NCBI RefSeq assembly: GCF_009360615.1
Contig: NZ_SPEY01000042.1
Location: 62,001 to 126,000, forward strand
Direction of reading: 5' to 3'
DNA length: 64,000 nucleotides
Origin: Comamonas sp.
GTDB taxonomy: Bacteria; Pseudomonadota; Gammaproteobacteria; Burkholderiales; Burkholderiaceae_C
Shown here: positions 1,363 through 4,872 of the stretch, in pieces
Numbering within the stretch: position 1 is the first letter of the stretch
How the letters are laid out: each line of letters begins with the position of its first letter
Notes under the pieces: model-generated
Told to the model about the DNA's origin: nothing
The model's database searches: none
The model's input: the letters and a program-made list of their open reading frames with translations, nothing else
Program-made: the position numbers and the translations under genes

Positions 1363-2100
1363 ATGGGTCAGAAAGTAGCGTACGTCACGGGGGGCATGGG
1401 CGGTATCGGTACCGCGATCTGCCAGCGTTTGCACAAGGATGGCTTCAAGGTGATCGCGGGCTGCGGACCATCGCGCGACTACCGCAAGTGGCTGGACGAG
1501 CAGGCGCAATTGGGTTACACGTTTTATGCCTCGGTCGGCAATGTGGGGGATTGGGAATCCACCGTCGAAGCCTTCAATCAGACCAAGGCAGAGCACGGCA
1601 ACATCGACGTGCTGGTGAACAACGCGGGCATCACTCGCGACCGCATGTTCGTCAAGATGACGCCGGATGACTGGAAGTCGGTGATCGAAACCAATCTCAA
1701 CTCGATGTTCAACGTCACCAAGCAGGTGGTGGGAGACATGGTGGAAAAAGGCTGGGGCCGAATCATCAACATCAGCTCGGTCAACGGTGCAAAGGGCCAG
1801 GCCGGTCAGACCAATTACTCGGCTGCCAAGGCCGGCATGCATGGCTTCACCATGGCGCTGGCGCAAGAACTGGCCGCCAAGGGTGTGACCGTGAATACGG
1901 TCAGCCCTGGCTATATTGGCACCGATATGGTCAAGGCCATTCGTCCCGATGTGCTTGAGAAGATCGTTGCGGGCGTGCCCGTCAAGCGTCTGGGCGAGCC
2001 CTCGGAGATTGCCTCCATCATTGCCTGGCTGGCTTCGGAAGAGGGCAGCTATTCCACCGGCGCTGACTTTGCCGTCAACGGCGGCCTGCACATGCACTAG
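1363..2100 (+). CDS. phaB: acetoacetyl-CoA reductase (NADPH), PHB synthesis
   Basis: Reduces acetoacetyl-CoA to (R)-3-hydroxybutyryl-CoA for PHB polymerisation. It is a 245-residue short-chain dehydrogenase of the usual PhaB length. The dinucleotide-binding glycine motif GGMGGIG lies at residues 10-16, NNAGI near 86-90, the catalytic serine in NISSVNG (about 138-139), and Tyr152 and Lys156 in NYSAAKAG. Resemblance to Cupriavidus PhaB runs end to end, including the terminal GGLHM. The ATG at 1363 has a purine-rich CAGGAGAG ribosome site 5 to 12 bases upstream. No phaC is in the window. A strong terminator follows directly. Confidence 0.96.
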   Translation: MGQKVAYVTGGMGGIGTAICQRLHKDGFKVIAGCGPSRDYRKWLDEQAQLGYTFYASVGNVGDWESTVEAFNQTKAEHGNIDVLVNNAGITRDRMFVKMTPDDWKSVIETNLNSMFNVTKQVVGDMVEKGWGRIINISSVNGAKGQAGQTNYSAAKAGMHGFTMALAQELAAKGVTVNTVSPGYIGTDMVKAIRPDVLEKIVAGVPVKRLGEPSEIASIIAWLASEEGSYSTGADFAVNGGLHMH

Positions 2101-2198: not shown

Positions 2199-2229
2199 AA
2201 AACCCGCAGAAATCGTTCATGCGGGTTTT
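2199..2229 (-). terminator. terminator-like hairpin at end of the minus-strand small-ORF transcript
   Basis: AAAACCCGC pairs with GCGGGTTTT around a 13-base loop. Read on the minus strand it ends in TTTTG and lies about 140 bases past the stop of the 19-codon ORF, so it fits the end of the yheS/small-ORF transcript. The symmetric A/T flanks could also back up phaB termination. Confidence 0.7.
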
Positions 2230-2371: not shown

Positions 2372-2431
2372 TTAGCGCTTGCGATCGCGTTCGTCTTCGG
2401 GCCAGATGGACATGATGTTCGTGGTTTGCAT
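2372..2431 (-). CDS. 19-residue mini-protein with WPxDxRDRKR motif (paralogue A)
   Basis: Function unknown and no family recognised. The complete product is MQTTNIMSIWPEDERDRKR followed by TAA. Support for translation: an ATG with AGGAGAGA five bases upstream, and the same C-terminal motif (Trp-Pro, acidic patch, Arg-Asp-Arg-Lys-Arg) as a second small ORF 95 bases upstream. The two share the peptide motif and the DNA string CGCGATCGCAAGCG but differ elsewhere, which suggests selection on the peptide end. It is too short for standard gene callers. It lies downstream of yheS on the same strand and is followed by a terminator-like hairpin. It could be a peptide signal, a regulatory leader or a small-protein effector; the sequence does not decide. 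Confidence 0.6.
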   Translation of the reverse strand: MQTTNIMSIWPEDERDRKR

Positions 2432-2526
2432 GGGAATCTCTCCTGTATGTCTGTTTAACGCCTGATGGATTCAGCCCGTTGACAGCTTTTGGGAAAATTT
2501 TTAACTGTTCTTTTATCCAGTGGTCA

Positions 2527-2649
2527 TCAGGCAGCGAATGCGGGGGCACGCTTGCGATCGCGATCGTCCCAAGGCCAGGCCATCAGAGACATAGCGGCTG
2601 CCGCCTTTACGGGCTGGGCTTTGGCGGTGTCGGTAACAGTGGTGGTCAT
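2527..2649 (-). CDS. 40-residue mini-protein with WPxDxRDRKR motif (paralogue B)
   Basis: Function unknown. The predicted 40-residue product starts MTTTVTDTAKAQPVKAAAAM and carries AWPWDDRDRKR at residues 24-34, then a short Ala-rich tail. The ATG at 2649 has an AAGGAGTG-like ribosome site at good spacing. It matches the smaller ORF downstream at WP, D and RDRKR (8 of 10 positions, the other two being E/W and E/D). There is no signal peptide or membrane segment; the N-terminal half is probably unstructured and the C-terminal motif strongly basic. The tandem arrangement, a separate ribosome site for each and a terminator downstream argue for real genes rather than chance frames. Detection by proteomics or ribosome profiling would settle this. 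Confidence 0.62.
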   Translation of the reverse strand: MTTTVTDTAKAQPVKAAAAMSLMAWPWDDRDRKRAPAFAA

Positions 2650-2826
2650 TGCAGTTCACTCCTTTGCCTGTACAACGCCTGGCCTGAACTGCAGGTTGAC
2701 AAGAAGCTGAATCAACAGCGCAAGAAAATGCAACGCACGTTTGCTGATGTTGTCAGTTGCGGGGAGCGATTCGCTGTGAAGGGCGCCCTGCCAGGGCGGG
2801 TCAATGACAGGGCTCGCTTATCGCGC

Positions 2827-4872
2827 TCAGCAGGTTTCGATGCTCAGGGCTTCGATGTGCTCCGAAAGCTCCAGCCAGCGCTCCTCCAGCTGATCGATTT
2901 CAGCGTTGACGGCACTGAGTTGCTTGCCCGCTTCCACGATATCCCCACCGGACAGGCCGGGCGTGGCCAGCTTTTCTTCCAGCGCGCTGCGCTGGGCATT
3001 GAGCTGGGGCAGTGTCCTGTCGATCTGTTCCAGCTCTTTCCTGTAAGGCTTGGTCTTTTCGGCCAGTTGCTGGCGGGCTGCTGCAGCCAGGCGTCGGGCT
3101 TCCCGCGGGTCGGCTGCCTCAGTGAGGGTTTCTGTTTTCAGAGCATCAGGCGCTTTCTTGGCGGCGGGTTCCGGCGTATTTGGCTTGAAACCTTCCGGAG
3201 CCTGCACCGCTGGCGTGCTCGCGGCCTGCTGTTCGGCATTGCGCGCTTCTTCACGCAGCCGCTTGGACTCTTCCAGCAGATAGCGCTGGTAATCGTCCAG
3301 GTCGCCATCGAAGGGGCCGACAACGCCGCGGCCCACCATCCAGAAGTCCTCGCACACGGCGCGCAGCAGGTGGCGGTCGTGCGAGACCAGCATCACGGTG
3401 CCGTCAAAGTCATTGAGCGCCATGGCCAGTGCTTCGCGTGTCGCCAGGTCCAGGTGGTTGGTAGGCTCGTCCAGCAGCAGCAGATTGGGGCGTTGCCAGA
3501 CGATCATGGCCAGCACCAGGCGGGCTTTTTCGCCGCCGCTCATGCTGCCCACGGATTGCTTGACCATGTCGCCGCTGAAATTGAAGGTGCCCAGCCAGTT
3601 GCGCAAGTCCTGTTCGCGGCTGGCGGCGGGTGCGGCCGCACCCAGTTCCTTGGCCAGACGGATCATATGTTCCAGCGGGTTTTCGCCGGGGCGCAGCACA
3701 TCCAGTTCCTGCTGGGCAAAGTAGCCGATATTCAGGCCCTTGCCTTCGGTGACGGTTCCGGCCAATGTCTTCATCTCGCGGGCGATGGTCTTGACCAGGG
3801 TCGATTTACCCTGGCCGTTGGCGCCCAGAATGCCGATGCGTTGACCTGCCAGCACGGAGCGGTTCACGCCCCGCAGGATGGTGGTCTGGTGGCCGGCTTC
3901 GTCCTCATAGCCAAAGCTGGCATCGGTGATCGCCAGCATGGGATTGGGCAGGTTGGCCGGTTCCTTGAATTCGAAGGTGAACTCGGCCTCTGCCAGCACC
4001 GGACCGATCTTTTCCATGCGCTCAAGTTGCTTGACACGGCTTTGTGCCTGCTTGGCCTTGCTCGCCTTGGCCTTGAAGCGGTCAATGAACTTCTGCAGAT
4101 GCGCCATTTTTTCCTGCTGCTTGGCGAAGCTGGCTGCTTGAAGCTCCAGCTGCTGGGCGCGCAGCTCTTCAAAGCGCGAGTAATTGCCGCCGTAGCGATG
4201 GATCTGTCCGCCCTGAATCTGCAGGGTCACGTTGGTGATGGCGTCCAGAAACTCGCGGTCGTGGCTGATGACGATCATCGTGCCGCTGTAGCGCTTGAGC
4301 CAGGCTTCCAGCCAGACCAGGGCGTCCAGGTCCAGGTGGTTGGTGGGTTCGTCCAGGAGCAGGAGATCGCTGGGAGCCATCAATGCACGGGCCAGCTGCA
4401 GGCGCATGCGCCAGCCGCCCGAGAAGCTGTTGACGGGCTGATCCAGCTCGGAGACCTTGAATCCCAGACCGAGAATCAGGGCTTGTGCGCGCGATTCAGC
4501 ATCGTGCGCACCGGCATCTGCCAGATCCACGTGGGCCTGGGCGATTTCCATGCCATCGCCGGAAGCTTCGGCGGCCGCCAACCGGGCGTTCAGCTCGGCC
4601 AGGCGTGTGTCGCCATCCAGTACGAACCGGGTGGCAGATTCGTCGGTTTCCGGCATGTGCTGTGCCACCTGTGCCATGCGCCACTGGGGAGGGATGAAGA
4701 AATCACCGCCGTCTTCGCTGATGCTTCCATTGAGCAGGGCAAACAGGCTGGATTTGCCGGCACCGTTGCGGCCGACAAGGCCGACGGACTCTCCCGGGTT
4801 GATGGTGGTGCTGACTTGGTCGAGCAGGACTTTGGTGCCGCGGCGCAGCGTGATGTTCTTGAGACTGATCAT
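2827..4872 (-). CDS. yheS: ABC-F family ATPase, YheS type
   Basis: Soluble twin-ATPase of the ABC-F group, whose members act on the ribosome E site rather than in transport. At 681 residues it is a little longer than E. coli YheS (about 637). In order: first Walker A GRNGAGKSS near residue 35, signature FSGGWRMRLQ, LLLDEPTNHLDLDA with the linker RFKAKASKAKQAQSRVKQLE, second Walker A GANGQGKST near 345, signature SGGEKARLVLA and LLLDEPTNHLDL. The C-terminal 80 residues are a charged coiled coil like the Uup tail. The start in MISLKNITLRRG matches the YheS N-terminus. It is convergent with phaB, and the two mini-ORFs lie 180-500 bp downstream. The assignment to YheS over Uup rests on the N-terminal and linker resemblance. 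Confidence 0.92.
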   Translation of the reverse strand: MISLKNITLRRGTKVLLDQVSTTINPGESVGLVGRNGAGKSSLFALLNGSISEDGGDFFIPPQWRMAQVAQHMPETDESATRFVLDGDTRLAELNARLAAAEASGDGMEIAQAHVDLADAGAHDAESRAQALILGLGFKVSELDQPVNSFSGGWRMRLQLARALMAPSDLLLLDEPTNHLDLDALVWLEAWLKRYSGTMIVISHDREFLDAITNVTLQIQGGQIHRYGGNYSRFEELRAQQLELQAASFAKQQEKMAHLQKFIDRFKAKASKAKQAQSRVKQLERMEKIGPVLAEAEFTFEFKEPANLPNPMLAITDASFGYEDEAGHQTTILRGVNRSVLAGQRIGILGANGQGKSTLVKTIAREMKTLAGTVTEGKGLNIGYFAQQELDVLRPGENPLEHMIRLAKELGAAAPAASREQDLRNWLGTFNFSGDMVKQSVGSMSGGEKARLVLAMIVWQRPNLLLLDEPTNHLDLATREALAMALNDFDGTVMLVSHDRHLLRAVCEDFWMVGRGVVGPFDGDLDDYQRYLLEESKRLREEARNAEQQAASTPAVQAPEGFKPNTPEPAAKKAPDALKTETLTEAADPREARRLAAAARQQLAEKTKPYRKELEQIDRTLPQLNAQRSALEEKLATPGLSGGDIVEAGKQLSAVNAEIDQLEERWLELSEHIEALSIETC

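Follow-up and report, generated by a model that had tools for sequence, protein, structure and literature searches.

Downstream of a yheS-type gene in a 64,000-nucleotide stretch of Comamonas sp. DNA (the window) lie two minus-strand reading frames that share the sequence WPxDxRDRKR. The question raised by this locus is whether such short frames are genes at all and, if so, what switches them on and what their products might do. They had been annotated initially as frames of 19 and 40 codons with good ribosome sites, and both are present as described. Of the further statement that both peptides end in the motif, the part concerning the shorter peptide (B) stands, while the longer one (A) continues for six residues (APAFAA) beyond it. 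Mini-gene B falls under the length limit of the list of open reading frames (ORFs) and was read directly from the sequence. The parts of the locus are as follows.

2527..2649, minus strand: mini-gene A, first of the tandem pair; ORF from 2649 to 2527 with stop, 40 aa, MTTTVTDTAKAQPVKAAAAMSLMAWPWDDRDRKRAPAFAA
2372..2431, minus strand: mini-gene B; ORF from 2431 to 2372 with stop, 19 aa, MQTTNIMSIWPEDERDRKR
2672..2700, minus strand: promoter of A; −35 GTCAAC at 2695-2700, spacer of 17 bp, −10 CGTTGT at 2672-2677
2455..2483, minus strand: promoter of B; −35 GTCAAC at 2478-2483, spacer of 17 bp, −10 CGTTAA at 2455-2460
2719..2733, minus strand: A/T-rich stretch TTGCATTTTCTTGCG 5′ of promoter A, a possible UP element
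2491..2506, minus strand: A/T-rich stretch 5′ of promoter B, likewise a putative UP element
2659..2665, minus strand: Shine-Dalgarno sequence AAAGGAG of A, ahead of its ATG
2438..2444, minus strand: Shine-Dalgarno sequence AGGAGAG of B, ahead of its ATG
2199..2229, no strand assigned: inverted repeat AAAACCCGCA/TGCGGGTTTT, read by eye, resembling a terminator in either direction, some 140 nt past B
2827..4872, minus strand: upstream yheS-type ABC-F ATPase gene, recognised by sequence, not by family search
1363..2100, plus strand: acetoacetyl-CoA reductase-like gene (phbB, by inspection), convergent neighbour of the pair

Promoter and transcription unit

WPxDxRDRKR matches at two places in the 5.26-Mb window genome, which are the two mini-genes, and the reversed-pattern control gave 0. 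TGTCAAC-N17-CGTT also gave two matches, again at both mini-genes, with 2 in its reversed control as well. GTCAAC-N16-18-CGTT is not enriched genome-wide, because the reversed control (39) exceeds the matches (26).

At least 157 distinct promoter-plus-ORF sequences were collected, 62 of them via whole-genome searches and 95 via a scan in which each of 84,980 species was represented by one genome (at least 118 stretches matched); they encode peptides of 18-42 residues, mostly 24. Their anatomy is GTCAAC, 17 bp, CGTTG(T/A), about 5 nt, CA, AAGGAGT and ATG. GTCAAC stands in all 157, as it does in both window promoters, and the spacer between it and CGTT is 17 bp in 149 and 16 bp in 8, the members having been selected on a near promoter match with a spacer of 16-18. 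Outside this selection were 22 raw matches, of which 5 are unrelated and 17 are members (some fetched repeatedly). These 17, as judged from the 13 looked at, have a variant promoter, are the second ORF of a two-ORF unit or lie at a contig edge; GTCATC or GTAAAC is found as the −35 element in some of the matches outside the criterion.

The ECF sigma factor SigAb of Acinetobacter was found by mutagenesis to use −35 GTCAAC and −10 CGTT separated by 17 bp (PMC12153292; this and later statements refer to the accessible part of that article), and its promoter profits from an upstream A/T stretch (PMC12153292, Bacon et al. 2025). Elements, spacer and A/T stretch are the same here as in the SigAb regulon, A/T-rich stretches being present 5′ of GTCAAC in many of 32 aligned promoters. 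Each window copy would then form a unit that has a promoter to itself and is transcribed with an extracytoplasmic-function (ECF) sigma factor. One may ask whether GTCAAC...CGTTG is rather an inverted repeat for a dimeric transcription factor, since CAACG and CGTTG do form inverted repeats at a nearly fixed spacing. However, a longer palindrome needs A after CGTTG, and among 32 promoters the base there is T in 19 and A in 11. Furthermore, no other promoter was seen, the elements are identical to those of SigAb, and at the two positions expected for a CA start, counted separately, C occurs in 25/32 and A in 25/32. A dimeric factor as the reader of this site is thus quite improbable.

At the other end of the unit, a terminator-like hairpin lies within 197 nt downstream in 106 of the 153 members with enough sequence, against an average of 1.7 in mononucleotide shuffles, the control used for folds as well. 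At the window locus the hairpin script reported another hairpin, near 2120-2145, rather than the inverted repeat at 2199..2229. A cis-acting leader peptide was considered and rejected: the next gene downstream of the window pair is convergent, and there is no gene to be regulated downstream on the same strand. The convergent downstream gene, together with the occurrence of copies at several loci, implies that the microprotein should act in trans.

Spread of the family and selection on the peptide

Within the same family the motif pattern was present in 29 of 200 genomes, with 0 in the reversed control throughout. At six of the 38 pattern places in these 200 genomes the match is an unrelated variant that lies in a different and longer frame; five of the six were read (WPxDxRDRKRVRR) and set aside. 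The matches listed in the species scan, with genus names taken from 80 of the 118 stretches, comprise 14 genera: Acidovorax, Paracidovorax, Comamonas, Delftia, Simplicispira, Giesbergeria, Diaphorobacter, Curvibacter, Xylophilus, Lampropedia, Extensimonas, Corticibacter, Allofranklinella and Rhodoferax, besides bins whose names give no more than a family, an order or a phylum. An example of a short ORF from the relatives' loci is MNTTAILSAWPEDERDRKRAPARL.

A sequence profile (R1) was then built from 32 aligned members. In 299 genomes of the family it gave 64 matches with E up to 2.2e-6, in 54 genomes, and after a gap in score the promoter-only or chance matches start at 3e-5. When R1 was run on 389 genomes of the order, among which 14 belong to the same family, nine matched at E ≤ 0.001, all from that family. 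Seven of the nine hold microprotein matches (G000, G128, G324, G020, G088, G190 and G054), and the matches in G087 and G091 are promoter-only or due to chance. None of the 375 order genomes outside the family matched at E ≤ 0.001, under stricter filters that weak members may escape. A search of the order with promoter and Shine-Dalgarno sequence matched 18 of 399 genomes; among the 19 matches listed, 7 are microprotein genes and the remaining 12 are single genes or coding sequence. In the genomes searched, the microprotein family is confined to Comamonadaceae.

The place of the gene in the chromosome is only partly constant. For 67 members the neighbours are a yheS-type gene upstream, in the same orientation, and an acetoacetyl-CoA reductase-like gene downstream, in the opposite one. 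A motif test found one or both of these neighbours missing from 61 members with enough flank on both sides, and in 29 the flank was too short. Other copies adjoin metK-like, corC-like or fbp-like genes (named by inspection) or tRNA genes. The reading of the window pair as a tandem duplication is supported, the two ORFs being copies of one gene family. At four other loci (L194, L200, L244 and L253) two microprotein ORFs also stand in tandem and, unlike in the window pair, a promoter is seen only ahead of the first. In Comamonas aquatica NBRC 14918 (L211) three motif copies lie inside about 460 bases, and Comamonas testosteroni ATCC 11996 carries the pair.

It had been proposed that the pair fits no described family. 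This agrees with what we found: Pfam and NCBIfam gave no match for three representative microproteins, Rfam gave none at cut-off for the window (including 851 bases of the region) and nothing but two tRNAs for 20 relatives' loci, and no description of the string DERDRKR or of the family was found in the literature searched, a search to which subscription journals and small-protein databases were external. No membrane segment or signal was seen on inspection of the shorter microproteins. The predicted structure of the 40-mer (mean pLDDT 63.2, pTM 0.23) is too weak for use.

Is the peptide kept by selection, or are these frames chance ORFs or relics? They are indeed very short and below gene-calling limits. 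However, the pattern occurs at only two places in the window genome, with a control of 0, and frame, start, Shine-Dalgarno sequence, promoter and motif are kept in relatives, with 14 genus names among the matches listed. Lack of conservation of the reading frames in relatives, which would have spoken against genes here, did not occur. Chance ORFs or relics are refuted by this conservation and deserve hardly any further weight. At the loci found by the profile, 55 of 55 ORFs picked by promoter and Shine-Dalgarno sequence alone carry W..D.RDR.R, a count that is not wholly independent because the motif was part of the profile's training data.

A Ka/Ks comparison had been suggested as a check, and pN/pS is below 1 in the motif and outside it as well. 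Among pattern-found members the motif gave an earlier pN/pS of 0.186 in all and 0.044 in the 24-mers; these values, like the codon fractions at R6, R8 and K9, are biased because the patterns fix most motif residues. The species-scan pattern fixes several synonymous bases besides, and pN/pS was therefore repeated on the profile-found loci. The motif there gives 0.22 (36 distinct sequences); in the 24-mers, the N-terminal part gives 0.46 (24 sequences) and the tail 0.32 (26). The proposal of a functional peptide family is supported in that the frame is kept together with its signals, and the mini-genes are conserved, free-standing microprotein genes that are very probably translated.

Could the transcript be mainly a regulatory small RNA, with the ORF secondary or of dual function? 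SigAb drives the small RNA SabS from the same promoter type (PMC12153292), and the loci here are short free-standing units of which 106/153 have a terminator. Some synonymous sites of the motif also show less variation than would be predicted from codon usage in the yheS-type gene: glutamate in the motif of the profile-found loci is encoded by GAA in 28/28 and 36/44, against a GAA share of 0.478 in that neighbouring gene. The GAA preference may reflect high expression, shared descent or an RNA constraint. On the other hand, conservation tracks amino acids, as the three pN/pS values show. Moreover, folding was less stable in the first 40 of the 157 members than in mononucleotide shuffles of the same sequences (mean z +1.15), the consensus fold computed for 60 coding sequences is a weak one (−4.81 kcal/mol), and Rfam is without a match at the loci apart from the tRNAs. 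A mainly regulatory RNA is therefore unlikely, though less so than a dimeric factor at the promoter.

The sigma factor and the genes that share the promoter

The genome G092 (2.3 Mb, 99% complete, 40 contigs) carries the microprotein MTQDTLSCWPFDERDRKR behind GTCAAC-N17-CGTTGA (L012). Searches of this genome with Sigma70 region 2 and region 4_2 found RpoD, RpoH, FliA (by inspection) and one ECF sigma factor; the other seven region 4_2 matches are, by inspection, six response regulators and an IclR-type regulator. Over 187 residues the single ECF shares 73% identity with a sigma factor of the window genome (L055). Since G092 holds the microprotein and only one detectable ECF, elimination leads to this sigma factor, which is linked to DUF3619, with the reservation that family profiles can miss a divergent ECF. 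Counterparts are present in G120 (74% identical) and G652 (72%), and G190 has one too. RpoE is unlikely as the cognate sigma: it was not found in G092, and the promoter elements of E. coli RpoE, GGAACTT and TCAAA (PMC12153292), differ.

In the window genome the locus G000:C36:307397-307537 (L055, L400) shows an ECF sigma gene with an overlapping DUF3619 gene and a DUF3106 gene. DUF3619 (PF12279) and DUF3106 (PF11304) were called by Pfam on the window genome's proteins only. In 5 of 5 genomes there is an overlap between the sigma gene and the gene at the DUF3619 position, and a DUF3106-like ORF comes next after these two in 3 of 3 read. DUF3619 was found in 259 of the 299 family genomes. It is present in 53 of the 54 microprotein genomes and in 206 of the 245 others (84%), with a Fisher p of 0.0035 that ignores relatedness; the microprotein genome without it is G016, which is 94% complete.

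The DUF3619 protein, with its one hydrophobic segment, is likely to be a membrane anti-sigma factor. The sigAb-aabA-aabB operon has the same order of sigma factor, membrane anti-sigma factor and third protein, with overlapping sigma and anti-sigma genes, and the third protein is predicted to be periplasmic there (PMC12153292). The DUF3619 operon shares this layout, with a putative anti-sigma role and localisation. The operon of sigma factor, DUF3619 and DUF3106 is a candidate for a widespread sigma/anti-sigma pair, and no paper on DUF3619 or DUF3106 together with 'sigma factor' was found in the literature searched.

Two differences from SigAb should be noted. The window genome's sigma belongs to another lineage and is likened to SigAb by layout and promoter, not by sequence orthology. 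Secondly, sigAb is autoregulated (PMC12153292), whereas the 500 nt ahead of the window genome's sigma gene hold no GTCAAC/CGTT site among the best-scoring places, so autoregulation was not found in that stretch. A GTCAAC...CGTT match inside the sigma gene (L087, L335) is coding sequence and was not counted.

Fourteen weaker R1 matches were read, and 11 of them sit ahead of exported or envelope proteins at about the same distance. Among the 11 are glycine-zipper-like proteins (L132, L136, L138, L139, L140), lipoprotein-like ones with a glycine-zipper-like region (L134, L141, L149), an EF-hand protein (L135) and others (L137, L142). The −35 element is exactly GTCAAC in four of the 11 (L134, L135, L141, L142) and a variant such as TTCAAC, CGCAAC or GTCAGC in the other seven. 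The remaining three, L133, L150 and L151, are coding sequence, and none was taken as a promoter; L133 resembles the start of another anti-sigma protein, but its promoter-like part lies in coding sequence and the match is probably due to chance.

A promoter profile, R2, had as its training set 33 microprotein promoters and the 11 envelope-gene ones and was run on 14 genomes. Of its non-microprotein matches 10 were read: five precede glycine-zipper or alanine/lysine-rich exported proteins and five are chance. Among 20 weaker matches, exported proteins clearly follow L322 and L330 and possibly follow L334 and L336. Because both R1 and R2 include the Shine-Dalgarno site, matches ahead of genes are to be expected; the bias towards exported proteins is not. 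Pfam was run on five of the target proteins, and the other targets were named by inspection.

A glycine-zipper 2TM protein behind such a promoter, often with a variant −35, recurs in several genera (L132, L136, L138-L140, L310-L312) and is a candidate core target of the sigma factor. A small alanine/lysine-rich exported protein follows GTCAAC-N16/17-CGTTG at L318 and L322 and, in similar form, at L097 of the window genome, and it starts farther from the promoter than the microproteins do. At L330 the promoter of a WXXGXW lipoprotein (similar: L088 of the window genome) has an 18-bp spacer. The genes that share the promoter thus encode mainly exported or envelope proteins, unlike the SigAb regulon, whose targets are sigAb, relA and SabS (PMC12153292).

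Possible partners of the microprotein

Our preferred reading of the sequence evidence is that the mini-ORFs probably encode an ECF-controlled, trans-acting cytoplasmic microprotein of the envelope response. The sigma factor that reads the promoter would most likely be the one encoded together with the DUF3619 and DUF3106 proteins (G000:C36). Under envelope stress the DUF3619 protein would let go of the sigma factor, and the freed sigma would turn on the envelope genes and the microprotein together, the latter most likely being a regulatory peptide of the same response.

What might such a peptide bind? The motif WPxDxRDRKR resembles over 10 residues a conserved cytoplasmic segment of DUF3619, LPYDISERLRAAR, which in the form LP[YH]DI[ST]ERLRAAR was found in 30 of 30 DUF3619 proteins. 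The likeness was noticed by eye before any test. A motif profile run over the 30 proteins gave a mean best score of 3.80, and 3.75 at a fixed place in the segment; the seven best places shown all fall in it. When the columns were shuffled, with every third DUF3619 protein used, 2 of 2000 shuffles reached the observed mean, and in repeats of the same kind 1 of 1000 with 10 or 11 columns and 6 of 1000 with 12. Unrelated 130-residue chunks scored as well in 2.7% of 413 cases, out-of-frame ORFs possibly included, and window chunks scored as well as the segment in 3 of 158. PF12279 did not match the three microproteins tested. The chunk rate of 2.7% and the fact that the likeness was first seen by eye make mimicry a lead, not a result.

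With these reservations, it is possible, though doubtful, that the microprotein is a mimic of the anti-sigma factor's sigma-facing segment LPYDISERLRAAR and in this way dampens or tunes the switch. Equally tentative is the related suggestion that a sigma-transcribed mimic of the sigma's own anti-sigma factor would serve as a soluble feedback peptide, with the gene duplicated to set the dose. A soluble peptide imitating an anti-sigma factor was not apparent in the literature searched.

Alternatively, an ECF-controlled microprotein may act outside the sigma switch, on another partner such as RNA, the ribosome, RNA polymerase or a membrane complex. The motif is arginine-rich, stress regulons often include small effector proteins, and the likeness to DUF3619 is only suggestive. 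DUF1127 small proteins, e.g. CcaF1 of Rhodobacter, are stress-induced and arginine-rich; they are longer than the microprotein and have another motif. Against another partner it can be said that the sigma/anti-sigma pair is the only partner for which there is any hint in the sequence; nothing speaks directly against another partner. We give a partner outside the switch about an even chance.

Among known systems, the SigAb regulon likewise has a short free-standing transcript among its few targets, but that short target is an RNA, SabS, and here it is a peptide (PMC12153292). The RpoE-dependent small RNAs of E. coli are similar in that an envelope-stress ECF sigma has short regulatory outputs; they differ in being RNAs behind other promoter elements, and no such peptide is described for that system in the accessible part of the article (PMC12153292).

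Taken as a whole, the microprotein of the ECF-controlled envelope response adds an apparently undescribed family, under the gene-calling limit, to Acidovorax, Comamonas, Delftia and their relatives. For the ECF operon of sigma factor, DUF3619 and DUF3106, which is widespread in this bacterial family, the analysis also puts forward a promoter motif together with candidate targets, and it suggests that promoter elements of the SigAb type, as reported in the accessible part of PMC12153292, are used by another ECF sigma factor elsewhere. Were the peptide indeed to imitate the anti-sigma factor, it would serve as a soluble means of feedback on an envelope-stress switch.
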